46,272 nt of DNA from a virus, in IMG/VR virus record IMGVR_UViG_3300032282_004213, positions 1-46,272 of that record, one strand, 5' to 3'. Below are positions 3-41,538 of this stretch, piece after piece; the first letter of the stretch is position 1, and each line of letters begins with the position of its first letter. The translations under genes and the position numbers were made by a program. The notes beneath the pieces are model-generated. The model had not been told where the DNA came from. It searched no databases and was given only the letters and a program-made list of their open reading frames with translations.

Positions 3-974
3 ACAACATATCATCTTTTTGTAATTAGCAGTACGGTAATGCCAGGTTCAATACAGGATAGTTTTGTACCTCTTATAGAATCCATTACAAATTGGAAATT
101 GAATAAAGAATACGGACTTTGTTATATTCCAGATTTTGTTGCTCTTGGGACAATTATTAAAGATTTTGAAAATCCAGAATTTGTTGTGTTAGGGCAAAGT
201 GATCAAAAAGCTGGTGATAAAGCTTTAGAATTATATTCCAAAGTATTTGTGAACAATCCACCAGTAAAGAGAATGTCATTAATAGAAGCAGAAATAGCAA
301 AAATTAGTTTAAATGCTTATATTTGTACAAAGATTAGTTTTTCTAATTTCTTAACAAGAATTTGTGAAAAGTTTGATAATGTAAATGTTGATAACATAAC
401 TGAATCAATTGGAATTGATAAAAGAATCTCACCACATTACTTTAAAGGCGGATTATCTTTTGGTGGAACTTGTTTTCCAAGAGATACATGGGCTTTTATG
501 AAAATGTCAGAGAAATTAGGTATGAAAGCCTACCATATAGAGGCAGCAGAAAAGTTGAACCAAGAACAAGATAGGCATTTACTTGATAAGGTAATTAAAG
601 TATCAATTGATAATAATTTGCCAAATAAAATTTCTATTTTAGGATTAGGGTTCAAAAACAACACACCAGTTATTAACGAATCTGCTTCAATAAAATTAAT
701 AGAAAAATTATTAAATATGAATTATAAGATTTATGTATATGATCCAGTAGAAGAAGCTGTAGAAAATACTAAACAGTTATTTGGAGATAAAATAGAGTAC
801 TGCAACACACCAAAAGAATGTATAGAGAATTCAAAATTGTGTGTAATAACCAATCCAAACAAAGAATATGAAAACTTACTTAGTACTGCTCAGAAAGATT
901 CATATATAATAGATTGTTGGAGATATTACAAAAATAAAAATAATTTAAATATTATAAATATAGGTAAAAAATAA
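3..974 (+). CDS. UDP-glucose/UDP-sugar 6-dehydrogenase, 5' end cut by window
   Basis: This is an NAD-dependent nucleotide-sugar dehydrogenase that would oxidise C6 of a UDP-sugar (most likely UDP-glucose to UDP-glucuronate) in the cytoplasm. The frame is open to the left edge. The first ATG, at 39, lies inside the conserved STVMPGS segment that follows the Rossmann domain, so it is not the start, and the NAD-binding half is outside the window. Visible parts are the central-domain helix EAEIAKISLNAY with its conserved Lys, the catalytic cysteine motif FGGTCFPRD, and a C-terminal UDP-binding domain opening with GLGFKNNTP. The stop overlaps the ATG of the next gene (TAATG), so translation is probably coupled. 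Specificity (UDP-glucose, GDP-mannose or UDP-HexNAc) cannot be fixed from this fragment. The motifs fit UDP-glucose dehydrogenase best. Confidence 0.88.
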   Translation, partial: TTYHLFVISSTVMPGSIQDSFVPLIESITNWKLNKEYGLCYIPDFVALGTIIKDFENPEFVVLGQSDQKAGDKALELYSKVFVNNPPVKRMSLIEAEIAKISLNAYICTKISFSNFLTRICEKFDNVNVDNITESIGIDKRISPHYFKGGLSFGGTCFPRDTWAFMKMSEKLGMKAYHIEAAEKLNQEQDRHLLDKVIKVSIDNNLPNKISILGLGFKNNTPVINESASIKLIEKLLNMNYKIYVYDPVEEAVENTKQLFGDKIEYCNTPKECIENSKLCVITNPNKEYENLLSTAQKDSYIIDCWRYYKNKNNLNIINIGKK

Positions 975-1789
975 TGTTAGGATTTTTAATTATTGCAACT
1001 GGTAATTATTATAAATATTTACCAAATTTGATAAAATCAATTGAAAAATTTTTTCCATCTAACCTAGAGAAAAAATATTATATCTTTTCAAACCATAAAC
1101 TTGATATTAAATTTATAAAAAATTATCAAACTTTTTATTTTAAACATCAAGGCTTTCCAAGTAGCACATTATTAAGATTTCGTGTTTTTGACCAAATAAA
1201 AGATATTTTAAGCAAAGAAACTGAGAGATTGTTTTATATTGATGCAGATAGTCTTTTTGTTAGACCACCAATAGATGAACTATTTGATAAAAACATAGAT
1301 ATCTTTGGATTTGAGCATGGAGAAAATATAGTAAGAGATAAAAGTAATTTACCATATGAAAGAAACCCATCATCTTTAGCTTGTGTGAACTATGGAGATG
1401 AAAGAAAATATATTATAGGTGGATTTTATGGTGGTAATACAAAAAGAATGATTGAAGTGTTTAGTTTGCTAAACAATAATGTAGATAAAGACCTTCAAAA
1501 TAATATTATTGCTAAGTTTCATGATGAAAGTCATATGAATAACTATTTTGTAAACAATAAAGATACAATAATTTTGAATACTAAGAATATTTTAGGTGAA
1601 GTAGATTCTTATAGAAAATTGAAAGCTTGGAATATCAATGAAAATTTAGAAACCTGTAGAGATTTGTTTATATTAAATAACAATAAAGAAATATTGACAA
1701 CAGAAGATTTTTTTGTTATATTTTTGGAAAAAGATCACAACAAAGAAAGAAATTACAACGGTTCTGATACCGAAATCATATTAAATTAA
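974..1789 (+). CDS. Family 6 glycosyltransferase (ABO blood-group enzyme type)
   Basis: This is a retaining GT6-type glycosyltransferase, the family that adds alpha-1,3-linked Gal or GalNAc to a galactoside acceptor. The GT6 landmarks appear in order: an N-terminal strand (FLIIATGNYYKYL), the metal-binding DXD motif as DADSLF, then LPYERNPSSLA, then the donor-pocket block YIIGGFYGGNTKRM, and finally HDESHMNNYF. The last block corresponds to HDESHLNKY in the vertebrate ABO enzymes and holds the Glu proposed as catalytic nucleophile. At 271 residues it is a bare catalytic domain without transmembrane anchor or signal peptide, as in bacterial members. It sits between a UDP-sugar dehydrogenase and a methyltransferase, which supports a role in building a surface glycan. 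Donor and acceptor are unknown. All Arg codons I read are AGA/AGG. Confidence 0.88.
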   Translation: MLGFLIIATGNYYKYLPNLIKSIEKFFPSNLEKKYYIFSNHKLDIKFIKNYQTFYFKHQGFPSSTLLRFRVFDQIKDILSKETERLFYIDADSLFVRPPIDELFDKNIDIFGFEHGENIVRDKSNLPYERNPSSLACVNYGDERKYIIGGFYGGNTKRMIEVFSLLNNNVDKDLQNNIIAKFHDESHMNNYFVNNKDTIILNTKNILGEVDSYRKLKAWNINENLETCRDLFILNNNKEILTTEDFFVIFLEKDHNKERNYNGSDTEIILN

Positions 1790-1797
1790 GGATAAAG

Positions 1798-2400
1798 ATG
1801 GACAAAATTTTAAAACAAACATGGTGGGACAACAACCTACCAGATCAAAGAATGTTTAATACATTTTTGGGTTGGATTGGTGGAACAGATGCAGCTTCAA
1901 AAGTAAAATTTAGATCTTTTTTGAAAGATAAAGATTATAAATCAATTATAGATATAGGATGTGGTCCTGCCACTGAATATGAAGGATTTAAAAAAGATAG
2001 TATTGATATACAATATACTGGTGTTGATTCAAGTGAGTTTTTGTGTAATTATAACTCAAATAGAGGTGTGCCTATGATAAAAGCAGAAGCACACTCTATA
2101 CCTGTAGAAGATTCTGCTTTTGATGTTGCACACTCAAGGCATGTGTTAGAACATCAACCAGATTTTAGACCAGTTTTAGATGAAATTGTAAGAGTTGCAT
2201 CAAAACTAGCAGTACATATCTGGTTTCACAAACCAGAAGATAAAGAGATAATAGATCATGATTCATCAACAAATTTATATCATAATTTTTACAAAAAAGA
2301 AGATATAGAAAACTATTTGGCACAAAACAAAAAAGTTCAAAAAGTAGAATGGTTAAATGTTGATGAAAAAGAGAATATATTATTAATTTGGCTAAATTAA
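1798..2400 (+). CDS. Class I SAM-dependent methyltransferase
   Basis: This 200-residue protein has the class I (Rossmann-like, Methyltransf_11-type) signature. Motif I is IIDIGCGPATEY near residues 50-61, an acidic strand end follows at TGVDSS, and motif IV/post-IV is the HSRHVLEHQPDFRPVLDEI region. The fold binds S-adenosylmethionine; the substrate is not evident. Because it lies inside a sugar nucleotide and glycosyltransferase cassette, a sugar or glycan O-methyltransferase is the natural inference, but nothing in the sequence proves the acceptor. The start is supported by an AAGGA Shine-Dalgarno at 1788-1792 that overlaps the stop of the preceding gene. Confidence 0.8.
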   Translation: MDKILKQTWWDNNLPDQRMFNTFLGWIGGTDAASKVKFRSFLKDKDYKSIIDIGCGPATEYEGFKKDSIDIQYTGVDSSEFLCNYNSNRGVPMIKAEAHSIPVEDSAFDVAHSRHVLEHQPDFRPVLDEIVRVASKLAVHIWFHKPEDKEIIDHDSSTNLYHNFYKKEDIENYLAQNKKVQKVEWLNVDEKENILLIWLN

Positions 2401-2415
2401 TTTTATGAGGCACAA

Positions 2416-3423
2416 ATGAAACGTATTTTAGTATTGGGAGCTGGTGGCTTTATTGGCTCTCATTTGGTAAAGAGATTAAAGTTAGAAGGATATTGGGTTC
2501 GTGGCGTTGATGTAAAACATCCAGAATTTTCTAAAACTGTAGCAGATGAATTTATTATCGGAGACTTAAGAGATTCAAAAGTATGTGATTTGGTTGTAGA
2601 CAAATCAATTGATGAAATATATCAACTAGCAGCAGATATGGGTGGTGCTGGATATGTATTTACTGGTGACCACGACGCAGATATTATGCATAATTCTGCT
2701 ATTATAAATCTTAATATTATGGAACAAGCCGTAAAAAAGAACGTAAAAAAGATTTTCTACAGTTCTTCTGCTTGCATGTACCCAGCTTACAACCAAGAAG
2801 ATGAAAATAATCCAGTATGCACAGAACCTTCTGCATATCCAGCGGCACCAGATTCTGAATATGGTTGGGAAAAATTGTTTAGTGAGCGTCTGTTTCTATC
2901 TCTGATGAGAAATTATGGTATTCAAGTGCGTGTTGCTCGTTACCATAACATTTTTGGACCAGAAGGAACATGGCATGGTGGTAGAGAAAAGTCACCAGCC
3001 GCTCTTTGTCGTAAAGTAGCTGAAGCTAAATCGGGTGGTTTAATAGAAGTTTGGGGTGATGGTAAACAAACACGTTCTTTTATGTATATTGACGAGTGTG
3101 TAGAAGCTACTCGTAGATTGATGGACTCTGATTTTACTGGACCTGTCAATATTGGTTCTGAAGAAATGATTGCAATTAATGATTTAGCTCAAATGGTTAT
3201 TGATGTATCTAGTAAGCCATTAGCTATTAAAAACATTCCTGGCCCCGTTGGAGTTAGAGGAAGAAATTCTGATAATAAACTTTACAAAGAGAAGATTGGA
3301 TGGGAAACTGAAAAGAAATTAATAGATGGAATACGCTCCACTTATTTTTGGATTGAAAAACAAGTAAAAGAAAACAGATATTCTGACAACGATCTTAAAG
3401 TATTATTGAAATTAGGAAATTAA
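2416..3423 (+). CDS. GDP-mannose 3,5-epimerase-like NAD-dependent sugar epimerase
   Basis: This extended short-chain dehydrogenase has an N-terminal GAGGFIG dinucleotide-binding loop and resembles plant GDP-mannose 3,5-epimerase along its length. Shared blocks are AADMGGAGY, SSACMYP (with the cysteine used as acid/base in the plant enzyme), YGWEK (the YxxxK catalytic pair), RYHNIFGPEGTWHGGREK (with the second catalytic Lys), WGDGKQTRSFMYIDECVE and PVNIGSEEM. The known reaction converts GDP-D-mannose to GDP-L-galactose or GDP-L-gulose. A GAGG ribosome site at 2407-2410 supports the start. Codon use differs from its neighbours: about half the Arg codons are CGT/CGC, whereas the flanking genes use almost only AGA/AGG, hinting at a separate origin. 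The stop overlaps the next ATG. Confidence 0.85.
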   Translation: MKRILVLGAGGFIGSHLVKRLKLEGYWVRGVDVKHPEFSKTVADEFIIGDLRDSKVCDLVVDKSIDEIYQLAADMGGAGYVFTGDHDADIMHNSAIINLNIMEQAVKKNVKKIFYSSSACMYPAYNQEDENNPVCTEPSAYPAAPDSEYGWEKLFSERLFLSLMRNYGIQVRVARYHNIFGPEGTWHGGREKSPAALCRKVAEAKSGGLIEVWGDGKQTRSFMYIDECVEATRRLMDSDFTGPVNIGSEEMIAINDLAQMVIDVSSKPLAIKNIPGPVGVRGRNSDNKLYKEKIGWETEKKLIDGIRSTYFWIEKQVKENRYSDNDLKVLLKLGN

Positions 3424-4247
3424 TGAAAATTTTAGTAACAGGTCATAAAGGCTATATTGGCAATAAAGTATTTAATAAATTAAACCAAATTGGTTATGAA
3501 ACTATTGGTATTGATTTGAAAGATGGTCATGATATTAATGACTGTTTACCAAAAAATAAAACTTTTGATTATGTTTTTCATTTAGCAGCATTACCAAGCG
3601 TGGAATATTCGGTATTAAATCCTAGCTATACAATGAGACACAACGTATTAGCAACTTCAAAATTACTAGAATGGTCAAAAGATAATAAAGTAAAAAGATT
3701 TATTTTTTCATCTTCATCTGCAATTTATGGGGACGGAAATGGTCCAAAATCTCCTTATGGGTTACATAAATTAATATCAGAACAAGAGTGTCAACTTTAT
3801 TCAAGACTCTATAACTTAGATACTGTATGCTTAAGGTATTATAACCTATACTCAGAGGACCAAAAGTATGGAGGAGCATATTCCACTGCTATATCTGCTT
3901 GGATGGAAATGATTAAAACCAATCGCCCTTTAAGAATGGATGGAGATGGTGAACAAACAAGAGATTTCATTCATGTTAGCGATGTTGTAGAAGCAAATCT
4001 ATTTTGTATGAATTATGAAAATAAATTTAATGGTAATTGTTATGATATTGGTAGTGGGAAATCAATATCTTTAAATTATATTAAAGATTATATCAATAAA
4101 TATAATAAAGTAGAGTGGGTTCAATTTTCAGAAAGAATTGGTGATGTAAAGAACACAAAATCAGATATAAGTAAAATATTACAAATCGGTTGGTCACCAA
4201 AAGTTAGTATAGAAGATGGTTTAAAACTTTGTTTTTATAAGGAGTAA
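3423..4247 (+). CDS. NAD-dependent sugar nucleotide epimerase/dehydratase
   Basis: This 274-residue extended SDR protein has the nucleotide-binding GHKGYIG at its N-terminus, HLAALPSVEYS after the third strand, SSSSAIYGDG, the catalytic YGLHK (YxxxK) and a substrate-domain block RYYNLYSEDQ. DGDGEQTRDFIHVSDVVEA is the conserved C-terminal signature of the UDP-glucose 4-epimerase group. It probably interconverts or dehydrates a nucleotide sugar in the same pathway as the preceding epimerase, with which it overlaps by one base (TAATG). The exact substrate is not determinable. At 274 residues it is somewhat shorter than a typical GalE (about 330-340), with a trimmed C-terminal domain. Confidence 0.82.
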   Translation: MKILVTGHKGYIGNKVFNKLNQIGYETIGIDLKDGHDINDCLPKNKTFDYVFHLAALPSVEYSVLNPSYTMRHNVLATSKLLEWSKDNKVKRFIFSSSSAIYGDGNGPKSPYGLHKLISEQECQLYSRLYNLDTVCLRYYNLYSEDQKYGGAYSTAISAWMEMIKTNRPLRMDGDGEQTRDFIHVSDVVEANLFCMNYENKFNGNCYDIGSGKSISLNYIKDYINKYNKVEWVQFSERIGDVKNTKSDISKILQIGWSPKVSIEDGLKLCFYKE

Positions 4248-16087: not shown

Positions 16088-17526
16088 TGGCAATAAAAAG
16101 ATATTTAGCTGATTCCGATACAACAATAACAAATGCTTATAAAGCAAATCTAACTAGCACTGGTGTTAGTGGAAATATGGGTTTATCTGATATTCTAGAG
16201 ATATTTAAAATATTTGGACAAGCTAGCTCTGGTTCTTCAGAATTATCTAGAATATTGGTTAAGTTTCCAGTAGATCAAATAGTTTCAGATAGAAATGCAA
16301 ATTTGATTGCAAGTTCTGGTTCTGTAGAGTGGTATTTAAAACTTTATAATGCAAGACACTCTCAAACATTACCAAAAGACTATACCCTAACTGTATCAGC
16401 AGTATCTAGATCATGGGATGAAGGATACGGTTTAGATATGGAAGAGTATAGTGATATTGGTTATGCAAATTGGATATCAGCAGCATCATCTTCTAATTCT
16501 GGTATAACTAACTGGACAACTTCTGGTGGCGATTATCACACTACGCCTACATCATCTCAATACTTTTCAAATGGTACTGAAGATTTAATTATTAATGTCT
16601 CAAACATAGTAGAACAGTGGATTAATAATACAAAACAAAATTATGGTTTTGGTATTAAATTATCTTCAAGTCACGAAAATGCATTGCAATCTTTTTATAC
16701 TAAAAAATTCTTTGCAAGAGGTACTGAATTTTTCTTTAAAAGACCAGTTCTAGAAGCACGTTGGAATTCTGTAAGAAAAGATAATAGAGGACATTTTTAT
16801 GCAAGTAGTTCGTTAGCATCAGCCCAAGATAATCTAAATACAATTTATCTTTACAATGTTGTTAGGGGTCGTTTGGCTAACATACCAGCAATTGGAACTG
16901 GTAACATCTATGTAAGGGTGTTTGACGATCCATCTGGCAACAATACAATTACAGCAACACCAAATAATCCTGTAACTGGTGGATGGGTTTCTACTGGCAT
17001 TTACTCGGCTTCTTTCGCATTGAACACGACAGCATCAGAAGTATTTGATCGTTGGTTTAATAGCACACTTACAACCTGTTTCCACACGGGTTCAATAGAT
17101 ATTTATGATTTAGATTCACAAGATTATAACGTAACAAATCGCTATGTTGTTTCTTGTACGAATCTTAAAACAAATTATTACTCTGAAGAACAAGCAAGAT
17201 TCAGATTCTTTGTTCGCAAGAAAGATTGGCAACCAACTATTTATACAGTAGCAACTAATTTCATTCCATCTGAAATGATAGAAAGTGCGTCATATAAATT
17301 GGTTAGAGTTATTGATAATTTAGAGGTTGTACCTTATGGAACAGGTTCTACAATGCATACTGGTCTTTCATATGATGTTTCTGGAAGTTATTTTGATTTA
17401 GATATGAACACTTTAGAAGCAGGTTATTCATACCAAATTAAATTAGCATTTTACGATGGTTTTACAAATAATTGGAAAGAACAACCAGATACATTTAAAT
17501 TTAGAGTAGAAAAGAATGAGTCTTAA
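16087..17526 (+). CDS. Tail structural protein with DNRLRE-like domain
   Basis: This 479-residue beta-rich protein begins MAIKRYLADSDTTITNAY and has the DNRLRE-type pattern. An ordered set of strands contains GSSELSRILVKFP, WYLKLYNARHSQTLP, SAVSRSWDEGYGLDMEEY, VSNIVEQWIN and YGFGIKLSSS. That domain usually makes stable beta-sandwich stalks in secreted or virion proteins. The C-terminal 100 residues look Ig-like (AGYSYQIKLAFYDGF to FKFRVEK). It lies between gp6 and the LamG giant and overlaps the latter by 11 bases. A baseplate-periphery role is inferred from position only. Confidence 0.62.
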   Translation: MAIKRYLADSDTTITNAYKANLTSTGVSGNMGLSDILEIFKIFGQASSGSSELSRILVKFPVDQIVSDRNANLIASSGSVEWYLKLYNARHSQTLPKDYTLTVSAVSRSWDEGYGLDMEEYSDIGYANWISAASSSNSGITNWTTSGGDYHTTPTSSQYFSNGTEDLIINVSNIVEQWINNTKQNYGFGIKLSSSHENALQSFYTKKFFARGTEFFFKRPVLEARWNSVRKDNRGHFYASSSLASAQDNLNTIYLYNVVRGRLANIPAIGTGNIYVRVFDDPSGNNTITATPNNPVTGGWVSTGIYSASFALNTTASEVFDRWFNSTLTTCFHTGSIDIYDLDSQDYNVTNRYVVSCTNLKTNYYSEEQARFRFFVRKKDWQPTIYTVATNFIPSEMIESASYKLVRVIDNLEVVPYGTGSTMHTGLSYDVSGSYFDLDMNTLEAGYSYQIKLAFYDGFTNNWKEQPDTFKFRVEKNES

Positions 17527-20500
17527 AGATATTTTTTTAAAAAATACAAATATCATAAATCAAGTAAGTTCTAATGAAATTGAACAAGATTTAGAATCTA
17601 AAGGTTATTTAACTGAGTATAAAATTGATAAAGATCAATTTATACCAACAGTTGATTTTGAAGATCCTAAAAATTTTGTATTTTTTGGCTCAGCAAGAAA
17701 GCTTTATTTAAGTGCAATTTCTAGAATTTATAATACATACCCATATGATGGTTCTAAGTCTGAAAAATTAAATTGGCAGAATTCTTCATCTTATTTTGAT
17801 AAGTGGTTTTATGAAAATAAATATCCTAAATCAACTGGTTATGCTGTTTTTTCTGGAAATGGTTGGACTACTAAATTAGGTTCTACAATTAGTGGATACG
17901 GCGAACCAACTACTAAAGAATATATACAAGTCAAAGGTGGACCAAATAACTATTCTAATACTACTTTATTAGAAAATTTTCCATACTCTAATATTTATGA
18001 TTCAAATACTAATAGACTTTCTAATTTAAGATTAAACTTAAATAGTGGTTCTACAATAGAGTTTTGGTTAAATAAACAATCTTTTAATACTTCAAATACA
18101 CAAAAAGAAGTAATTTTTGATTTGTGGAATGGTCAAGCTTCTTCTAGTAATGATTATGGAAGATTAACTATTGAATTATCTGGTAATACTTCTTCTCCAT
18201 TTTATGTAACATTACAATCTGGTTCTTCTGGTTTTTATAACCAACAAATTAATTCAACATTAACAACATCATCTTTATCTAATTGGCATCATTATGCATT
18301 TAGTTTCTTAAATAACGAAACTAGTGGTATTGATGTAAAATTTTACTATGATGGAACTTTAGTTTCTACATCAAATTATGGAACTTCTGTTGGTGAAGTT
18401 GGTAAAACTTTAATAGCAAACATAGGAGCATTAAGGACAGCACCATCTGGTGTTATGTCCGTATCTGAAGGTTGGGGTAAACTTTCTGGTTCTATAGATG
18501 AATTTAGATATTGGAAAACAAAAAGAAACTCACAACAAATAGCAAGATATTGGTGGAATAACATTGATGGTGGTTCAAATAGCGATGATTATAATACAAA
18601 TATTGGTGTTTATTATAAATTTAATGAAGGTATAACATTAAATGATTCAAGAGATTCTGTAGTATTAGATTATTCTGGTAGAATTTCAAATGGTCGTTGG
18701 GTAGGTTACAATTCAAATTCAAGAAATACAAGTTCTGCAATAACGTTATACTCTGGCAACGACTATGCAGAGCAAGCAGATCCAATTATATATTCTACAC
18801 ACCCACAGGTTGAGGCAGCAATCAACGAGTACACTACCTCTGGTTCATCTCACGACTTTAATAATCCATCTTCAATTTATAATTCTTTACCACAATGGAT
18901 ACTTGACGAAGATGCAGAAAATGGTGAAATACTTTTAGAATTGGTATCAATTTTATCAAGTTATTTAGATAAATTATATATTCAAATAAAAAGTTTAAAT
19001 TCTTTAAAAAATCAAAATAATTTTATTTCTGGTTCATTACAGAAACCATTACCATACTCTAAAGAATTACTTACTTCTTCTGGTTTGGTTTCTCCAAGTT
19101 TATTCATAGATGCAAATGTATTTGAATCTATATTATCTAGAACTGATTCTGAGCAATTTGAAGAAAAATTAAGTGATATAAAAAATATCATATATCAAAA
19201 TATATATTCAAATTTAGTAAACATATATAAATCAAAAGGAACCGAAAAAGGTTTTAGAAACCTACTTCACTGTTTTGGTATAGATGAAAAATTAGTTAAT
19301 ATAAACCTTTATAGTTCAAATGTAGAATATCAATTTAAAGATAATTTTGAAAACATTTCTATAAAGAAAAAAATGATTGATTTTAACAATGCTGACAGAA
19401 GAGCGGCTACTGTTTATCAATTTAAAGATTCTACTAATTCTAACAGTAAATCTTATTTTACTGGTTCAACAGAACTTCTATATGTTCCAACTACGATAGA
19501 AGCAGAAGTATATTTTCCATTATTGCAATTAAATTTTGATGATTCATATAAAAGTGAAATATTAAATTCATCTTTATTTGGTATGCACACTGCAATTAAT
19601 AATGCAGATGACTTAACTTGGAATACAAATGATTATGCTAATTTTCAAGTTGTTAGTAATAAATTAGATTACTTATCTAAAGGTGCATACTTTTCTTTAA
19701 GTTCATCAAACCCCTATCCAATACCGCTATTAACATCTTCATATTATTATGATGTATATGATAATACAAAGTGGAATTTTAGCGTTACACTAAAACCAAC
19801 AAAAGAATTTAATAACTTTATATCTGGAAGCGTAATAACATCAAGCACTTCAACGACACCAGATATAAATTATGAAATAATATTCTCTGGCTATAATCTT
19901 ATGGCAGATAGTGTTGTTAATGAATTCTCTGTTTCTTCTTCAATTTCTTATAATGTAGCTAAGAATTTTATTTTATCAAATAAAAGATTATATGCTGGTA
20001 CAGAAAGAACAAACTTTACTGGTTCTGTAATAACCAATTCAGACGTAAGAGTTAGCGATATAAAGTATTGGTTAAAGGATTTGTCTAGAGAAGAACAAAT
20101 AGCTCATTCAAGAGATTTAGAAAATTATGGTTCTATAAATCCATTATATAATTCGTTCTTTTACAATTTAAGTTCAAGTAATTTTTCTTATATTCAAAAT
20201 AAAACTTTATTAATGAATTTAAATTTTGAATATGTAACCGCATCAGATTCAAATGGACGTTTCACTGTAATAGATGCTACTTCTGGAAGCTCTACAAATT
20301 CTTACAATTACCCAGCTTGGCTGAGTTCCTATGCAAATTCTCATTACACTGCAAGAGGAGATTTCTTCAATACTAATGGCAGTGACGTTGTAGATGTAAA
20401 TTATGTGGTATCAGCTAGACAAAGACTACCAGAAGTAATTAATAGTTCTGATATGATCAACATCTTAACACAAGATGATGATGTGTTTACTAGAGAGTCA

Positions 20501-23371
20501 AGACCAGTTAAATATCAAATAAATTTTGAAAAGAGTATGTATCAAACAATTTCTAGCGAAATGCTAAAAATGTTTGCAACAATAAAAGATTTTAATAATT
20601 TAATTGGTAATCCAATTTACAAATATAGACAAGAATATAAAGATCTTAATTATTTAAAACAAGTATTTTTTGAAAATGTTGGGAACGAGCCAGATTTAGA
20701 TAAATATTTAGATTTTTATAAATGGTTTGATTCTTCACTTGGTTCGTTCTTAATTCAGCTTACTCCAGCTTCTGCTGATACATCAAATGGATTATTAAAT
20801 GTAATTGAAAGTCATATACTTGAACGCAACAAATATCAACACAAATTTCCATCTCTAGAGTTTAGGCAAAATGATTTAGAAGCTGGTGCTATTTCAATCA
20901 ATAGACACCTTTACAATTGGCGTACTGGTTACAGACCAATTAGTAATCTTGAGAATGAAAATTGTTTTTATTGGAATCAAAGAGCTGAAAGAGCAGTTCC
21001 ACCAATTTCATCATCAAATGCTAGTGTTAATACTTCAAGAACAAACATTCTCAATGTTTCTTTGCAAGTATTAAACAGGTCTTTTACAACTCCTTATCGT
21101 TTTGATATTGAACAATCTAAACAAATTAAAGGCGGTGTAAATTTTGAAGTAAATAAAAATATAGATTTTGCTTCAATTGCTGTTGCGCCACATGGGCCTT
21201 TAGATACAGATAGTGTAGTTAATGTTCCAGCAAATTATCTTGTTTCATTAATTGAAAACACATCTTCATTATTGCAAGATTGTAATGATGTAACAAATCC
21301 AAATAAAAAAATTAAATATTACTTTAATACAATACAAGGAAGAGATTATATATCATCTTCGCTTGCATATGGTGAAGTACTAAACAGCAAAATAGCATTA
21401 CCATTTAACGTTGTAAGCGGATCAGATAATAGCGGTTATCAAACTCAAGTATCCAATCAGTTTATGAGTGGTGCAATAATAACCAACATACATAATGATA
21501 CATATGGTTCTATGAATGAAATATCAATTCAAGGACCATTTACAAATGCTTGGGTTGGTGGTCGTCAATCAAGACACATTAAATTAAACAGCGGAGCAGA
21601 TAATTATCTCAATAGGCCAGAAGCTTGGAAAATACTTTTAGGAATTGGTAGTTTTACTGGTTCTTATCAAACCGCACTTGGAATAGTTGGAGCAGATTAT
21701 CCATTCCCAGAAGGTAATCCAGATGATCCTTCTTATCCTGTTCGTACTCATTTAAGAGCTACATATCTTAGAGAAGAAACTGCAAAAAGACCAGTAAATA
21801 TTAAAAATATTCAATCAACAACCAGTTCTGCCGTATTAGGTAATTATTCTAATACTTATGAAGTTTTGCATACATTTGGTGCTACCTCAAATAATAGAAT
21901 GCTTGTTGACGCTGTTAATCCATCAAATGCTAGTGAATTCTACAGAATTTTAAGAACAGATACTGATGGAAGAGTAGATTTTGAGTTACCAATAATTCCA
22001 AAATCTCAAACTGTTATTAAAAATATATTTTCTGCTCCTGGCGATTACAGAACAAATTCAAGAGGATATTTAAGCAGATACTCAGAAGAAACTTCACCAT
22101 ACAATGTATTACCATTTAGAAATAGAGACATAATTGGTACAGGTAGAGGTAATAGAGATTTAAGAGGTGCAACAAGCGATTCTGTATATGTACCAAATAT
22201 AGTTTCTGGTTCTTTAAGAGATTACAATAGTTTAGTATGTTATTATTCTGAATTTGGTGGTACTGTTTCTGGGTCTAGTGGACAACTTCCCTCAATACAC
22301 AAAGTAAATAGAAATACATTATTTACAGTAGCATACTCTGGCTCAACCATAGTTAGAAAACTTGATTATGACAATGGATTTATATCACATGCAATACCAC
22401 AATCTGACGAAGGTTATTCTTGGATTACTGCATCTTTAGCAACAAATACTTCTAGAAGATCAGTGTTTGCTGCTGGTGGTAGATTAGGTCCACCACGTTT
22501 ATTTAGTAGATTCACTACCGCATCTGGAAGCACTTCTGAATTTATAGTTAATACATTTGTATCTTCAAGTGGTATAGGATCGTATTTTGATACAATTGGC
22601 TTAAATGGTAGAATGTTTCCAGAAGATATTGCTGATATTTCTCTTGGCGGCAAATCACAGTTTATACCAATTGATTTTGTTGGTTTAAATACTTTAGTCT
22701 ATGAGACTTCTTCATACACTACTTTGGGTCAAACCGTAACTGATTACGCTATATTTGTTAATGCAACTTTTGTCGATACAGTAGCACCAAACAAAAATGC
22801 TGTGTTTACTGCACTGCTACAACATAGAGGCGGTTCATATGGTTACCCAATATTCAAGCAATTAAGAGTTGGAGAACACAGAGTAGCTAGAAACATTAAA
22901 GAAGATAATTATATATCTATAGATAAAGGAAGAAATCTTAGAACCTCTTTTGGATCAAGACCAGTATTTTATGAATTAGGTGTACAATTATTTAAAGAGC
23001 CAACATTAGAGTTAAACTCTTTACCACTCATAATTAATATAAAAGATGTTAATCTACCAAACGAAGAGAATAATATAAAATTAAAAATTAGTTATGAAAA
23101 TATAATTAAAAATTTCTCAAATACTGATTTAAATAGTGTTCTAAATTTGCCTAGATTTAAAAATGAAGTTACAATTTATGATACAATATTAACTTTACAA
23201 AATTTAGATAATACTAGATATATAATTGATAATGTTGAATATCAAACAGTAATATTACCAAATCCACAAAATATTACATTTGAAACTAACAGAGAAAGAA
23301 CTTCATTTAATTTTAATTGGAAAAATACAAGAGAAAATAGAAGAAGATCAAACGTAAATAATATATTTTAG
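17516..23371 (+). CDS. Giant LamG-domain baseplate/tail protein, 1951 residues
   Basis: This is the longest gene of the window. Residues about 170-400 form a concanavalin/LamG-like domain (SGSTIEFWLNK, then LSNWHHYAFSF, VKFYYDGTLV and GSIDEFRYWKTKRNSQQI). A second, more divergent copy seems present at about 735-880, ending in VSDIKYWLKDLSREEQI. Around residue 575 the segment YKSKGTEKGFRNLLHCFGI resembles the KGT-type motif of baseplate wedge proteins such as gp7 or tail protein I. The C-terminal third is beta-rich with many T/S-G-S turns. The position after gp6 and the size suggest a gp7-like wedge or peripheral component with carbohydrate-binding insertions. Direct gp7 homology is not proven. 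Confidence 0.68.
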   Translation: MSLKDIFLKNTNIINQVSSNEIEQDLESKGYLTEYKIDKDQFIPTVDFEDPKNFVFFGSARKLYLSAISRIYNTYPYDGSKSEKLNWQNSSSYFDKWFYENKYPKSTGYAVFSGNGWTTKLGSTISGYGEPTTKEYIQVKGGPNNYSNTTLLENFPYSNIYDSNTNRLSNLRLNLNSGSTIEFWLNKQSFNTSNTQKEVIFDLWNGQASSSNDYGRLTIELSGNTSSPFYVTLQSGSSGFYNQQINSTLTTSSLSNWHHYAFSFLNNETSGIDVKFYYDGTLVSTSNYGTSVGEVGKTLIANIGALRTAPSGVMSVSEGWGKLSGSIDEFRYWKTKRNSQQIARYWWNNIDGGSNSDDYNTNIGVYYKFNEGITLNDSRDSVVLDYSGRISNGRWVGYNSNSRNTSSAITLYSGNDYAEQADPIIYSTHPQVEAAINEYTTSGSSHDFNNPSSIYNSLPQWILDEDAENGEILLELVSILSSYLDKLYIQIKSLNSLKNQNNFISGSLQKPLPYSKELLTSSGLVSPSLFIDANVFESILSRTDSEQFEEKLSDIKNIIYQNIYSNLVNIYKSKGTEKGFRNLLHCFGIDEKLVNINLYSSNVEYQFKDNFENISIKKKMIDFNNADRRAATVYQFKDSTNSNSKSYFTGSTELLYVPTTIEAEVYFPLLQLNFDDSYKSEILNSSLFGMHTAINNADDLTWNTNDYANFQVVSNKLDYLSKGAYFSLSSSNPYPIPLLTSSYYYDVYDNTKWNFSVTLKPTKEFNNFISGSVITSSTSTTPDINYEIIFSGYNLMADSVVNEFSVSSSISYNVAKNFILSNKRLYAGTERTNFTGSVITNSDVRVSDIKYWLKDLSREEQIAHSRDLENYGSINPLYNSFFYNLSSSNFSYIQNKTLLMNLNFEYVTASDSNGRFTVIDATSGSSTNSYNYPAWLSSYANSHYTARGDFFNTNGSDVVDVNYVVSARQRLPEVINSSDMINILTQDDDVFTRESRPVKYQINFEKSMYQTISSEMLKMFATIKDFNNLIGNPIYKYRQEYKDLNYLKQVFFENVGNEPDLDKYLDFYKWFDSSLGSFLIQLTPASADTSNGLLNVIESHILERNKYQHKFPSLEFRQNDLEAGAISINRHLYNWRTGYRPISNLENENCFYWNQRAERAVPPISSSNASVNTSRTNILNVSLQVLNRSFTTPYRFDIEQSKQIKGGVNFEVNKNIDFASIAVAPHGPLDTDSVVNVPANYLVSLIENTSSLLQDCNDVTNPNKKIKYYFNTIQGRDYISSSLAYGEVLNSKIALPFNVVSGSDNSGYQTQVSNQFMSGAIITNIHNDTYGSMNEISIQGPFTNAWVGGRQSRHIKLNSGADNYLNRPEAWKILLGIGSFTGSYQTALGIVGADYPFPEGNPDDPSYPVRTHLRATYLREETAKRPVNIKNIQSTTSSAVLGNYSNTYEVLHTFGATSNNRMLVDAVNPSNASEFYRILRTDTDGRVDFELPIIPKSQTVIKNIFSAPGDYRTNSRGYLSRYSEETSPYNVLPFRNRDIIGTGRGNRDLRGATSDSVYVPNIVSGSLRDYNSLVCYYSEFGGTVSGSSGQLPSIHKVNRNTLFTVAYSGSTIVRKLDYDNGFISHAIPQSDEGYSWITASLATNTSRRSVFAAGGRLGPPRLFSRFTTASGSTSEFIVNTFVSSSGIGSYFDTIGLNGRMFPEDIADISLGGKSQFIPIDFVGLNTLVYETSSYTTLGQTVTDYAIFVNATFVDTVAPNKNAVFTALLQHRGGSYGYPIFKQLRVGEHRVARNIKEDNYISIDKGRNLRTSFGSRPVFYELGVQLFKEPTLELNSLPLIINIKDVNLPNEENNIKLKISYENIIKNFSNTDLNSVLNLPRFKNEVTIYDTILTLQNLDNTRYIIDNVEYQTVILPNPQNITFETNRERTSFNFNWKNTRENRRRSNVNNIF

Positions 23372-36138: not shown

Positions 36139-36669
36139 ATGAAACCTGGAATATTAGGGCTTGATGTAAGTTCTTCCAAAATAGGGATTGCCGTTTTGGG
36201 TGAAGATAGAAAGATATTAACATCTGAAGTTATAAAATTAAAATCTGACGATTCATTAGAGAATCGTGCTTTGATGTTAGAAAATAAGTTAGAAAAATTA
36301 AAAAAGTTTTATTTTATTGAAGACATATATGTTGAAGAACCATTTATAGCTTTTGGTGGTGGAAAAACAACCGCACAGACTATGGCAACTCTTCAAAGAT
36401 TTAATGGAATGTGCTGTTATACCGTTTACAGAGTGTTTGATAAATCACCAAATATGGTTCAAGTTAGAAGTGCAAGAAGTAAATTAGGAATTAAAATACC
36501 TAAAGGAACTGCACAAAAAGATTCTAAAAAGTACATAATTGAGTATGTCGAAAAGAACCACCCAGAATTTAAATATAATTTAACAGTTCACGGTAATCCA
36601 CAACCAGGAACAGATGATAGAGCCGATGCAATTGTTATTGCTCTATACGGGCTTGACCAACAAGTTTAA
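36139..36669 (+). CDS. RuvC-like Holliday junction resolvase
   Basis: This 176-residue RNase H-fold nuclease would cut four-way DNA junctions and branches before packaging. The acidic catalytic set is visible: Asp9 in GILGLDVSSSKIGIAV, Glu66/Glu67 in IYVEEPFIAFGGG, and Asp159, Asp160 and Asp163 in TDDRADAIVIAL. T4 uses the unrelated endonuclease VII (gp49) for this, so this is a functional replacement, as in several other large phages. Its neighbours primase and Mre11-Rad50 form a DNA metabolism group. Short hairpins in the first 130 bases were judged weak. Confidence 0.82.
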   Translation: MKPGILGLDVSSSKIGIAVLGEDRKILTSEVIKLKSDDSLENRALMLENKLEKLKKFYFIEDIYVEEPFIAFGGGKTTAQTMATLQRFNGMCCYTVYRVFDKSPNMVQVRSARSKLGIKIPKGTAQKDSKKYIIEYVEKNHPEFKYNLTVHGNPQPGTDDRADAIVIALYGLDQQV

Positions 36670-36687
36670 CAATGCTATGATTGATTC

Positions 36688-37617
36688 ATGGCAACCAAAA
36701 CATCACTACTAAGTTCGGCACTCGGAGATTACAGAAAGTCTGGTGACGAACTTCTTTTTTTCTGTCCTTTCTGTCAGCATCATAAAAAGAAACTATCTGT
36801 AAATTTAAAAACAAACAACTATAAATGTTGGGTTTGTGATGAACGTGGTCGAAACGTTCGTCGCTTGCTTAAGACTCGTCTATCCTATTCTCAGCTTTAT
36901 GAATGGGATAAAATTAATAATGTTGTTGATCTAACGCAGCTTGACTCCAGCATTTTTGATGAAGAGCAGGCAGTAGTTGAAGAAATAATTGAACTACCAC
37001 CAGAATTTATTTCTCTTGCAAACAAAAATGTTCCATTATCTGCACGATTTGCTTTGAAATATCTTTACGACAGAGGCTTCAAAAAAGAAGATGTTGTAAT
37101 GTGGAAAGCTGGTTGTTGCTTGACAGGCGAGTACAAAAATAGAATTATCATTCCATCTTTCAATGAAAATGGAGATGTGAATTATTTTATTGCTCGTTCA
37201 TACACAAATGACTTTCCAAAATACATGAATCCAAAAGTATCTAAAGACATTGTATTTAATGAACTTTATCTTGATTGGAACGAAGATATTACAATTGTTG
37301 AAGGCGTATTTGACGCGATGAAAGCAATAAATGCAATTCCTCTATTGGGGTCTACACTAAATCAACAATCAAATCTGTTTAGAAAAATTGTTCAATATGA
37401 CCCAAAAGTCTACATTGCTCTTGACCCAGATGCAGAGAAGAAAGCATCAACACTTATTCAGAACCTCGTTGGTTACGACATTGAGCTTTACAAAATAGAC
37501 GTTTGCGGTTATGATGATGTAGGTACAATGCCAAAACACGTTTTCTTAAACAGAAAAGAAAGAGCAGAACCAATCGGAGAAGATTGGGTACTAGAGCATA
37601 GTTTGCTTGCAATCTAA
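36688..37617 (+). CDS. DNA primase, zinc finger plus Toprim (gp61-like)
   Basis: This 309-residue primase has the CHC2-type zinc-binding domain at its N-terminus, FFCPFCQHHKKK with Cys26, Cys29 and His31/32, then CWVC with Cys47 and Cys50. The Toprim catalytic domain follows, with VEGVFDAMK (Glu205) and IALDPDAEK (Asp246, Asp248). It would make RNA primers with a replicative helicase, which is not in this window. The gene uses CGT/CGA/CGC Arg codons noticeably more than the structural genes before it. A 19-base gap precedes it, with no convincing Shine-Dalgarno. The C-terminal tail is short, as in phage primases lacking a helicase domain. Confidence 0.85.
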   Translation: MATKTSLLSSALGDYRKSGDELLFFCPFCQHHKKKLSVNLKTNNYKCWVCDERGRNVRRLLKTRLSYSQLYEWDKINNVVDLTQLDSSIFDEEQAVVEEIIELPPEFISLANKNVPLSARFALKYLYDRGFKKEDVVMWKAGCCLTGEYKNRIIIPSFNENGDVNYFIARSYTNDFPKYMNPKVSKDIVFNELYLDWNEDITIVEGVFDAMKAINAIPLLGSTLNQQSNLFRKIVQYDPKVYIALDPDAEKKASTLIQNLVGYDIELYKIDVCGYDDVGTMPKHVFLNRKERAEPIGEDWVLEHSLLAI

Positions 37618-37627
37618 AGAGGAATAA

Positions 37628-40600
37628 ATGAAAATAGCACATATTAGTGATACTCATGTAAAATTAAATAAATTTCATAAAGAATATAGAGAAGTATTTT
37701 CAAAAATTTACTCAATAATAAAAGAGGAAAAAGTAGATTATGTAGTACATACTGGTGATTTGTTTCACAACAAACTGGCTTTATCGCCAGAGGCCGTCAA
37801 CCTTGCAGCAGAATTTTTACAAAACTTAGCAAATATAGCCCCAACCTATATAATTGCTGGTAACCACGACGCAAACTTGTCTAATAGCGATAGAATGGAT
37901 GCAATCACACCAGTAGTAAACTTATTAAATCATAAACAACTATTTTACTTAAAAAAGTCTGGTGAAACAAAACTAAAAGACAATTTTACTCTTAATGTTC
38001 TTTCGGTATTTGATGAAGAAGGTTGGGTTAAACCTTCTAACTCAGACGCTATTAATATCGCTCTTTATCATGGTTCTGTAAACGGAGTAAAAACAGATAC
38101 AGGGTTTGTTCTTGAAAAAGCTGACCACGACGTATCAATTTTTGAGGGTCACGATTACGCTTTTCTTGGAGACATTCACAAGACCAACCAAACTCTCGAT
38201 AATGAAGGAAGAATTCGATACCCAGGATCTACTCTTCAGCAGAATCACGGCGAGACAAATGATAAAGGATTCCTTATTTGGGACATTCAAGATAAGCTCT
38301 CATTTGATTGCAGACACGTTGTAATCGATAATCCTAATCCGTTTATCACAGTTGAAATTGAAGAGAACGGAGAGCTTCCCAGCAACGTTTCAATACCTCC
38401 TAATGCAAGACTTCGATTGCTTTCTAGAACCAATCTTCCAGCAGAGATTATGAAGAATGTTGGTGACCTAATCAAAGAAAAATGGAAGCCAGAAAGTGTT
38501 TCTTTTTTATCCAAGAACGTCGCCAGATCAAAAGAACTAAGGGAAAGTGTAGATGGTATTGAAAAAGAAGATTTGCGTAATGTAAAAGTTCAAGAACAAT
38601 TAATTGAAGAGTTCCTTGTAAACTACAAAGTACCACCAGAAGTATTAGAGAAAGTATTTGAGATTAACAAAAAGTTTAATACAGAAGTTGAATCAAAAGA
38701 AGAAGTTGCACGAAACATTAATTGGAAAGTTGAGTCTTTAGAATGGGATAATCTTTTTAATTATGGTGGCGGCAACAAGATTAATTTTAAGAACCTACAA
38801 GGTATTGTTGGAATCTTTGGCAAGAATTATTCTGGCAAGTCTTCAGTGATTGATAGTATCCTTTACGCTCTTTTCAACACAACTTCCAAGAACGAAAAGA
38901 AATCATCAAATGTAATCAATACAGCAAAGAAAAATGCTGTTGTAAATCTTAAACTATCAATAGATGATAACGAATACGTTGTTGCTCGTACTTGTGAAAA
39001 AACAATCAAGAAAGATGGAACTGAAGAAGCTAAGACAGTTCTAAATTTTATTGGTGACGGTGTTTCGCTTAACGGAGATAGCAGAGTACAAACAGATGCA
39101 AACATCAAAAAAATGTTTGGAACTATTGATGATTTTATGCTTACATCAATGTCTTCCCAGCTCGACTCACTTTCATTTATTCGTGAAGGTTCAACAAAAC
39201 GTAAAGAGATTCTTGGTAGGTTCCTAGACTTGGAAATCTTTGATGCTAAGAATAAATTAGCTAAAGAAGAATCAGCAAGCATCAAGGCGCTTATTAAGAA
39301 ACTTGAAGCAACAGATTACGATACTCAAATCTTAAAAGCACAAGATGAAATTGATTCAATTAATAATAATACTGAAAGGCTAAAGAACAATGTAAAAGTA
39401 TCTAATGACACTCTTGCTAGTTTAAAAAGTGAAATTGATTCATTAGAAGGACAACTTAAAAACATTAACGTAGAATCAATTGACATTTCTAAAACAATTG
39501 AGAGAAAAGAGTATCTTGAAGCCACGCTAAAGAAAGCTGTTAAAGCAAAAGCAGATAAGACAGCAGAAATAGCAAATAGCAATACTGATTTAGAAAAGAT
39601 TCTAGAATTTCTCAACGAGTATGACATTGAAAGTCTTAAGAAAACAAAACAAGAGATTGTTGATTACCAAACAAAACTTTCTGCAATTACTCAAGATGTT
39701 GGGCTAAACAATAAAGAAACAAAACATCTAAAAGATAAAATTAAATTGCTTGAAGAAGTTCCTTGTGGTACTCAATTCACAACTTGTAAATTTATTAAAG
39801 ATGCTATTGCTGCTTCTAACAAAATTGAAAGTCAAGAAGAGAAAACAAACAATTTAGTTGAAGAACAAAATAAACTTGGTAATGTTCTACAATCACTAAA
39901 CCCAGAGACTGTAGAAAACCAAATTGCAAAACATCAGCAACTAACAACTAAGCAAGCTAATCTTGAGAAACAAATTCTTGAATTAAAAGTAGATGTTGAA
40001 AAATTCAATACAATCATTTCTAACATCAATAAGGAAATGAATACTGTTAATGATAAGATTGAACAGTACAAGAAAAACGAAGAACTATTCAAACAAGTAC
40101 AATCACTAACAGAAGATAAATCTGCTAAACAATCACAGCTAAGCAAGTTGGAGAAAGAAGCAAAAGCTGCAAATGATGAATTATTATCATCACACATTAG
40201 GTTTGGTTCGTTGAGCGAAAAGATTGTTGGACTCAAATCTTCTAAAGAAGAGTTAGAAAATTATAGAAATGAATTTGCTGCTTATGATTATTTTATGAAA
40301 GCAACAAGCTCAAATGGAATCTCATACGAGATTATCAAAAAGAAACTTCCAGTAATTAACGAAGAGATTTCAACAATTCTTTCTAATATTGTAGACTTTC
40401 AAGTTTACTTTGAGGATGATGGTTCTAAACTAAACATTATGATTGAGCATCAAAACTCAGAACCAAGACCAATTGAAATGGGTTCGGGTGCAGAGAAATC
40501 AATTGCTGCTATGGCTATTAGACTTTCTATGCTTCAAGTATCCAATCTTCCTAAGTCAAATCTATTCATACTTGATGAGCCAGGAACTGCTCTTGATAAT

Positions 40601-40753
40601 GAAAACATGGAAGGATTTATTAGAATACTAGATATGATTAAAAATTATTACGATACTGTTCTTCTTATATCACACATGGATGCTTTGAAAGATGTTGCAG
40701 ATCAAATTATTACAATTGATAATATTGATGGATTTGCAAAGATTACTATTTAG
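37628..40753 (+). CDS. Fused Mre11-like nuclease and Rad50-like ATPase (gp47-gp46)
   Basis: This single 1041-residue protein carries both halves of the SbcCD/gp46-gp47 exonuclease. Residues 1 to about 345 are the calcineurin-like nuclease: Asp8/His10 (SDTH), Asp44 (GDLFH), Asn79/His80 (GNHD), His148 (YHGS) and His184 (GDIH). From about residue 366 the ATPase starts (WKVESLEWDNLFNYGGGNK), with Walker A GKNYSGKSS at 398-406. A long coiled coil follows, with a Cys713-x6-Cys720 pair at its apex. The protein ends with signature MGSGAEKSIAA, Walker B LFILDEPG and LLISHMD. The frame is continuous with no stop or internal start needed. It would resect DNA ends for recombination-dependent replication. 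Confidence 0.9.
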   Translation: MKIAHISDTHVKLNKFHKEYREVFSKIYSIIKEEKVDYVVHTGDLFHNKLALSPEAVNLAAEFLQNLANIAPTYIIAGNHDANLSNSDRMDAITPVVNLLNHKQLFYLKKSGETKLKDNFTLNVLSVFDEEGWVKPSNSDAINIALYHGSVNGVKTDTGFVLEKADHDVSIFEGHDYAFLGDIHKTNQTLDNEGRIRYPGSTLQQNHGETNDKGFLIWDIQDKLSFDCRHVVIDNPNPFITVEIEENGELPSNVSIPPNARLRLLSRTNLPAEIMKNVGDLIKEKWKPESVSFLSKNVARSKELRESVDGIEKEDLRNVKVQEQLIEEFLVNYKVPPEVLEKVFEINKKFNTEVESKEEVARNINWKVESLEWDNLFNYGGGNKINFKNLQGIVGIFGKNYSGKSSVIDSILYALFNTTSKNEKKSSNVINTAKKNAVVNLKLSIDDNEYVVARTCEKTIKKDGTEEAKTVLNFIGDGVSLNGDSRVQTDANIKKMFGTIDDFMLTSMSSQLDSLSFIREGSTKRKEILGRFLDLEIFDAKNKLAKEESASIKALIKKLEATDYDTQILKAQDEIDSINNNTERLKNNVKVSNDTLASLKSEIDSLEGQLKNINVESIDISKTIERKEYLEATLKKAVKAKADKTAEIANSNTDLEKILEFLNEYDIESLKKTKQEIVDYQTKLSAITQDVGLNNKETKHLKDKIKLLEEVPCGTQFTTCKFIKDAIAASNKIESQEEKTNNLVEEQNKLGNVLQSLNPETVENQIAKHQQLTTKQANLEKQILELKVDVEKFNTIISNINKEMNTVNDKIEQYKKNEELFKQVQSLTEDKSAKQSQLSKLEKEAKAANDELLSSHIRFGSLSEKIVGLKSSKEELENYRNEFAAYDYFMKATSSNGISYEIIKKKLPVINEEISTILSNIVDFQVYFEDDGSKLNIMIEHQNSEPRPIEMGSGAEKSIAAMAIRLSMLQVSNLPKSNLFILDEPGTALDNENMEGFIRILDMIKNYYDTVLLISHMDALKDVADQIITIDNIDGFAKITI

Positions 40754-40756
40754 TAT

Positions 40757-41125
40757 ATGGCTTTTATATTACAACATTGGAAATTAATAGCAGGTATAGC
40801 ATACACAATTGCTATACCTGTTTATTTTAGTATTAAATCTGATAATGCAGTTAAAAATATGGAATCTGCTTTAGATACTTCACAACAGTCTAATCAAAAA
40901 CAAATAAAAGTTTTACAAGATGCTGTAAAAGATCAAAGAGAAGCATATGATAAAATGTTTAAAGATTATCAAGATAAAGTTAAAAAACTTGAAGAAGACT
41001 ATCAAAAAGATTTAAAACAAGTTAAAGATAAACAAGCAAAACAACAAAAAGATTTGCAAGAAAGATTTGCTGATCCAAAAGTTGTTGATAAAGAATTAGA
41101 AGAAAGGTTTGGACTTAAAAAATGA
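40757..41125 (+). CDS. Membrane-anchored coiled-coil protein (possible i-spanin-like)
   Basis: This 122-residue protein has one N-terminal hydrophobic segment at about residues 8-25 (WKLIAGIAYTIAIPVYF) and then a long Lys/Gln/Glu-rich coiled coil to the end. That topology matches inner-membrane spanins, and the next gene encodes an exported protein overlapping by four bases, which is also the arrangement of spanin pairs. No holin or endolysin is adjacent, so a lysis role is only a suggestion. The ATG follows the recombination gene by three bases without a clear ribosome site. A perfect 11-bp inverted repeat sits inside its first 65 bases. Confidence 0.65.
   Translation: MAFILQHWKLIAGIAYTIAIPVYFSIKSDNAVKNMESALDTSQQSNQKQIKVLQDAVKDQREAYDKMFKDYQDKVKKLEEDYQKDLKQVKDKQAKQQKDLQERFADPKVVDKELEERFGLKK
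40791..40830 (+). terminator. Candidate intrinsic terminator inside the 5' end of the next gene
   Basis: A perfect 11-bp inverted repeat, CAGGTATAGCA (40791-40801) and TGCTATACCTG (40810-40820), has an 8-base loop and is followed at once by TTTATTTTAG. Stem plus U-rich tract is the form of a rho-independent terminator, and it lies 38 bases after the stop of the recombination gene. It overlaps codons 12-21 of the following coding region, so it would also attenuate that gene. Confidence 0.5.
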
Positions 41126-41538
41126 TTATACTATTAATATTAACAAAATTGGCATTTGCACAAGACTATGCACCAATTAAAAAAGGCGAAGTAGCACCAT
41201 TATCTGGTACTATTCTCGCTCCTTCTGGTATGGCAACTATTATTGCTAAATGTGATGCAGATACTGCTGAAGCAAAATTAAAAGGTAAATATGATTTGGA
41301 TAAGTTACAAACTGAATGTGACTTAAATGAAGAAAAATTACAATATGATTTAGATTTACAAATTAAAACTAGTGAAGAAATAGTTGCAATAAAAGATAAA
41401 GAATTAGAAAAAGCATACGAAATAATAAAATCAACAAGCAAAAATAATACATCACTTTGGATTGGTGTAGGGTTTGCTGCTGGTATTGCTACATCTTTTG
41501 GTACTATTTATGCTTATGAAACAATAACAAACGAGTAA
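41122..41538 (+). CDS. Exported coiled-coil protein with C-terminal membrane segment
   Basis: This 138-residue protein has a signal-peptide-like N-terminus (MIILLILTKLAFA, likely cleaved before Gln14), a conserved-looking APLSGTILAP motif, a charged coiled coil and a C-terminal hydrophobic segment at about 111-130 (SLWIGVGFAAGIATSFGTIY). There is no lipobox cysteine, so it is not a standard o-spanin. A similar layout with an (A/P)xSGTLL-type motif recurs in aquatic phages next to a coiled-coil membrane protein, as far as I recall. It overlaps the upstream gene as ATGA, suggesting a co-translated pair acting at the envelope. Confidence 0.62.
   Translation: MIILLILTKLAFAQDYAPIKKGEVAPLSGTILAPSGMATIIAKCDADTAEAKLKGKYDLDKLQTECDLNEEKLQYDLDLQIKTSEEIVAIKDKELEKAYEIIKSTSKNNTSLWIGVGFAAGIATSFGTIYAYETITNE

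Follow-up and report, generated by a model that had tools for sequence, protein, structure and literature searches.

The window analysed here, a stretch of viral DNA of 46,272 nucleotides, contains a gene in which an Mre11-type nuclease and a Rad50-type ATPase are joined in a single polypeptide. Taking the evidence jointly, this protein is very probably a single-chain Mre11-Rad50 nuclease of the kind described for Mimivirus R555, which would act as an M2R2-like dimer and process DNA ends for recombination-dependent replication. The fusion, its domains and motifs and its fixed junction are established; no second copy has been seen in large relatives, and recombinases are present in 14 relatives.

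The fused gene is a single frame that starts with ATG and extends for 1041 amino acids without interruption, at exactly the position (37628-40753, plus strand) given in a preliminary description of this DNA. Judging from the bases before the start codon, it is preceded by what reads as a good ribosome-binding site (Table 1). The Pfam matches are Metallophos, over residues 1-169 (E 2.1e-14), and AAA_23, over residues 372-609 (E 4e-11), and PHROGs assigns an SbcD-like family to residues 1-369 and an SbcC-like family to residues 213-1039. The nuclease therefore comes first and the ATPase second in the same frame, as in R555-like viral fusions, and the N-terminal location of the nuclease that had been proposed is confirmed.

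Table 1. Features of the fused gene and of the genes next to it (residues are numbered on the 1041-aa protein)
Feature	Position	Strand	Basis or remark
RuvC-like Holliday junction resolvase	36139..36669	+	phrog_159, E 1.8e-12
DnaG-like primase	36688..37617	+	phrog_47, E 3.3e-45; 10 nt 5' of the fusion
Shine-Dalgarno-like AAAGAGGA	37616..37623	+	sequence reading; 4 nt 5' of the ATG
Mre11-Rad50 fusion gene, 1041 aa	37628..40753	+
Mre11 phosphodiesterase core and capping domain (residues 1-295)	37628..38512	+	Pfam/PHROG, 7dog fold match, motif alignment
Predicted Mre11 helix-loop-helix (residues 319-356), Rad50-binding element	38582..38695	+	AlphaFold2; position relative to known MR complexes (PMC3175470)
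Fusion junction N347-W366, 20 residues	38666..38725	+	alignment, structure match
Rad50 ATPase N-lobe (residues 366-535): Walker A GKNYSGKSS 398-406, Q-loop Q511	38723..39232	+	Pfam, alignment, model
Ascending coiled-coil arm (residues 536-710)	39233..39757	+	model helices
Apex loop VPCGTQFTTC (residues 711-720), Cys713-X6-Cys720 noncanonical hook	39758..39787	+	model, conservation
Descending coiled-coil arm (residues 721-893)	39788..40306	+	model helices
Rad50 ATPase C-lobe (residues 894-1041): signature SGAE 953-956, Walker B/Glu D983-E984, D-loop D990, H-loop H1016	40307..40750	+

The fusion is widespread in viral metagenomes, where 384 relatives were reported by one viral-contig scan and at least 595 by an alignment search. 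Both domains lie in one frame at 175 independent fetched loci, with identities down to about 26-30%, and this excludes chance or an assembly indel as the origin of the 1041-aa protein. The idea that such an error joined two separate genes consequently has practically no probability here, and it is further contradicted by the fixed length of the junction and by the fact that the changes found in it with respect to two relatives are synonymous only. Nevertheless, an artefact of this type probably does occur elsewhere. In Listeria phage LMTA-57 (locus L083) a fused gene of 3030 bases has been annotated, whereas the matching stretch of near-identical Listeria phages (100.0% identity) is 3031 bases long and is annotated as two genes. 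The LMTA-57 fusion is thus probably a sequencing error or a very recent mutation, and this one-base comparison led us to discount it as a second origin of the fusion. The fusion of the window, on the other hand, is genuine and belongs to a type that is very common in aquatic phages.

In a tree built from the Rad50 head lobes, the gp46 tree proposed as a check in the preliminary description, the fused sequences cluster together in a single large group (43 rows, SH-aLRT 93), separate from the split phage gp46 proteins and from E. coli SbcC. The only fused row outside the main group is that of LMTA-57. The deep branching order is unsure because several branches are long. No ordinary split pair was seen within the fused clade, although two genes there are interrupted. 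In jumbo phage LR756508 (L158:1444-5669) a 305-aa cysteine-rich, endonuclease-like reading frame splits the fused gene beside Mre11 motif V, which suggests a mobile insertion; a group I intron was considered and rejected for this gene, with no Rfam match. At the same place, the fused gene of L184 is split into two overlapping frames.

A second, split copy was also sought in 13 contigs of 132-204 kb, and the candidates came down to the fused gene and marginal partial matches. Marginal hits aside, the SbcC-like region lies solely in the fusion in all 13 contigs, and the SbcD profile does so in 12 of them. In the remaining contig (G013), whose fusion is locus L172, that profile gives only E 0.007 at a different place. 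These relatives, of unrated completeness, are therefore likely to have no further copy. Among bacterial and archaeal assemblies there were 13 matches, all of them in metagenome-assembled genomes and mostly on short contigs, and cellular hosts of the fusion were consequently discarded. The chromosomal match, in a WOR-3 record (L146:5995-8052), stops in a run of N followed by unrelated sequence, and this record looks like a misjoined assembly. No plasmid match covered 80% of the query and, among the matches listed, the best ones corresponded to the Rad50 part only.

Regarding the nuclease half, model residues 1-296 match the fold of SbcD from S. aureus (7dog; nuclease and capping domains) with a Z of 25.5. 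The ligand residues are D8, H10, D44, N79, H80, H148 and H184, which are invariant in the alignment of 54 relatives, together with D182, which replaces a His. The motif alignment reveals the five motifs of calcineurin-like phosphoesterases, with a His-to-Asp change in motif V. The complete metallophosphatase set previously attributed to the protein is standard in motifs I, III and IV but noncanonical in the other two, motif II being GDxxH and motif V GDIH, and Asp182 occupies the metal-ligand position of His206 in Mre11 from P. furiosus. GDxxH is found in nearly all the main fused-clade members and GDIH in each member tested, whereas most split phage gp47 proteins and E. coli SbcD have GHxH at motif V; Asp also occurs there in a T5-like Vibrio protein (L161). 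As Asp replaces one His ligand, the specificity of the nuclease or its metal preference may differ.

The Asp182 substitution and the GDxxH motif could also be the marks of a protein that has lost its nuclease activity and works only as a DNA-tethering ATPase. This is very unlikely, considering that Asp is also able to bind metal, that the remaining ligands are invariant and that the Mre11 part shows pN/pS values of 0.06-0.29, indicative of purifying selection. An active nuclease is the preferred reading. Beyond the capping domain, the AlphaFold2 model contains two helices (residues 319-333 and 337-356) that form a predicted helix-loop-helix, so that the protein would have both elements expected of Mre11/SbcD, and the second of them is predicted to bind Rad50.

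The two halves are joined by a segment of exactly 20 residues (N347-W366), gapless in 54 of 54 relatives. The last Mre11 helix stops at about residue 356 and W366 aligns with residue 1 of the solved Rad50 chains, leaving about 9 residues between both halves. The short linker that had been proposed near residues 345-366 is indeed short; nevertheless, it is not a loose connection but a fixed structural piece, kept both in length and in sequence (RNxNW). Between residues 345 and 370 there are 3 synonymous differences with respect to L002 and 6 with respect to L004, and no nonsynonymous ones; the junction evolves under purifying selection. The RNxxW motif recurs in most of the divergent members, including a 735-kb jumbo phage, which favours one ancestral fusion within the fused clade.

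It is also conceivable that separate subunits are supplied, through an internal start or by proteolysis, and that the protein acts as an ordinary two-protein complex. This is improbable, because the Rad50 boundary has no start codon and both the length and the sequence of the junction are conserved. An internal translation start at that boundary was rejected for lack of a suitable codon: from residue 300 to residue 420 there are just two possible ones, TTG at 316 and GTG at 407, and the latter falls within the ATPase, beside Walker A. As regards the single chain, a subunit ratio fixed at 1:1 is a trivial consequence of the fusion and does not by itself point to a new stoichiometry, since the separate Mre11 and Rad50 proteins already assemble 2:2, as (Mre11)2(Rad50)2 (PMC9569753). 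The AlphaFold2 model has a mean pLDDT of 82.6 and a pTM of only 0.48, so the placement of the nuclease on the ATPase head is unreliable in it.

The second half is a bipartite ABC ATPase arranged around an antiparallel coiled coil, as in Rad50 and SbcC, and its modelled structure matches 3av0 and 7yzo with a Z of about 31. Walker A, coiled coil, signature, Walker B and H-loop, all announced in the preliminary description, were located, and the key residues of the ATPase motifs are invariant across the alignment of 54 sequences.

A departure from the usual Rad50 architecture is found at the apex of the coil. Zinc hooks are in general said to consist of a conserved CXXC element (PMC9569753), which is common in Rad50/SbcC proteins although not universal. 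The apex loop of the model, located between helices 667-710 and 721-757, instead carries a CX6C arrangement (C713 and C720). Membership of the Rad50 family stands without CXXC, because it is based on the ATPase fold and motifs and close relatives have CXXC. The cysteine pair is kept in all of the 167 fusions aligned, and its spacing is CX6C or CX7C in 132, CX2C (that is, CXXC) in 31 and CX1C or CX3C in 4. When the hook columns are left out of the tree, the two types (CX6C and CXXC) switch at least 7 times on it. Close pairs of sequences, for example L055/L062, L139/L103 and L070/L061, are 75-77% identical over residues 1-690, yet the whole hook cassette differs within each pair, the CX6C form being VPCGxxFxxC-KFIKDA and the CXXC form HEYDPDCxYCCENxFVKDA. 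It is possible, although we propose it tentatively, that the coil apex of the fused family is a swappable cassette in which CX6C and CXXC interchange while the cysteine pair is retained.

The CX6C apex peptide had no significant match when cultured phages, plasmids and the PDB were searched with it, which for such a short peptide is weak evidence of absence, and no CX6C variant appeared among the papers listed by literature searches on the hook. The Pfam zinc-hook family did not match any of five proteins; as these included CXXC carriers, that model is uninformative about CX6C. The pN/pS values of coil and hook against L006 are left out, no realignment having been made. The hook variant may be of moderate novelty, and it would be the freshest feature of this protein, one absent from the preliminary description. 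If both hooks bind metal, the dimerisation tip would be a module of Rad50 that these phages exchange, perhaps preventing mixed complexes with co-infecting phages. Besides, a repeated change of spacing within one family would allow hook specificity to be tested comparatively.

The genes around the fusion follow the order RuvC, primase and fusion, with terminase and portal downstream, and genes for a contractile-tail baseplate are present in the window. The primase is upstream of the fusion in 113 of the 140 loci with enough flanking sequence. A RecA-family (RecA/UvsX) recombinase gene is present in 14 of 14 larger relatives searched; none was found within the 46-kb window, which is a fragment. 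By analogy with T4 gp46/gp47, the primase, RuvC and RecA-family genes would fit DNA-end processing in recombination-dependent replication.

Other genes of the window were also noted. Two small overlapping genes lie 3' of the fusion (40757-41538), the first encoding an N-terminally hydrophobic coiled-coil protein with a weak Rz-spanin match and the second a small, secreted-looking protein; relatives of them occupy a similar place at 79 and 111 loci, respectively, and they are possibly a lysis pair. Sugar genes follow one another over positions 3-4247 (UDP-glucose dehydrogenase, glycosyltransferase, methyltransferase and two nucleotide-sugar epimerases). In the tail region, a reading frame of 1951 aa (17516-23371) has no PHROG match, and matches are likewise lacking for the large reading frames at 9925, 23380, 27304 and 30603.

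The most likely mode of action would be as follows. Two chains would form one M2R2-like head, in which the short, fixed junction would keep each nuclease at the root of the ATPase to which it is joined, the arrangement of the two-chain enzyme. The Rad50 halves would dimerise on ATP and act as a gate between DNA ends and the Mre11 sites, while the coiled coils would point outward and pair via the apex cysteine hook, which would bind metal. Such an enzyme would resect or open DNA ends and hairpins in the phage, and the resulting 3' ends would be taken by a phage RecA/UvsX-like recombinase for recombination-dependent replication, followed by packaging.

Mre11/Rad50 fusions have been known since 2011 in viruses, phages, plasmids and bacteria (Yoshida, Claverie, Ogata; PMC3175470). 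That study described Mimivirus R555 and twelve further fusions, including that of Bacillus phage 0305phi8-36 and plasmid-borne cases, as well as relatives that abound in aquatic viral fractions and in some cases lie on scaffolds with phage primases; according to its authors, the N-to-C order is well suited to the known complex with a linker of 9-12 residues, and the fusion is the only copy in Mimivirus (PMC3175470). No experimental work on the viral fusion family was found in our literature search. By that description, R555 and the protein reported here have in common Mre11 followed by Rad50 in one chain and an active site with GDxxH and Asp for His206, and the phage primase neighbour is shared with relatives of R555 (PMC3175470). 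On the other hand, R555 has 1351 aa and a longer predicted coil, compared with 1041 aa here, in a tailed phage. The protein agrees with PMC3175470 on each point tested, so the fusion itself is not new.

Among predicted viral structures, the best matches are R555-like fusions of 969-1389 aa from giant viruses (Tupanvirus, Harvfovirus, Yasminevirus and Catovirus), annotated as DNA repair exonucleases. Proteins from two cultured phages of Tenacibaculum, pT24 and PTm1 (1310-1318 aa, annotated as DNA repair (exonuclease)), are also among them and are matched by fold only. Microcystis phage Mel-JY01 also has one gene (WWT39521.1), 28.7% identical over the whole length, but with a CXXC hook (HEYDPKCKHCC) instead of CX6C. 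T4 gp46/gp47, which act in recombination-dependent replication (PMC3175470), and their cyanophage homologues are the same two enzymes, with gp47 upstream of gp46 as here; nevertheless, they are encoded by two genes with small reading frames between them and have GHxH at motif V, and the cyanophage proteins carry a CXXC hook. E. coli SbcCD and archaeal Mre11-Rad50 share the fold of each half but are made of separate subunits instead of one chain; E. coli SbcD keeps the canonical Mre11 histidine and E. coli SbcC is distant on the Rad50 tree. A single chain, whose halves are in fixed register, would be a handy object for structural work. The fusion adds a well-supported phage branch to the known family and extends two points that were open in 2011, as it is complete and widespread in phage contigs and is the sole copy found in the large relatives checked.
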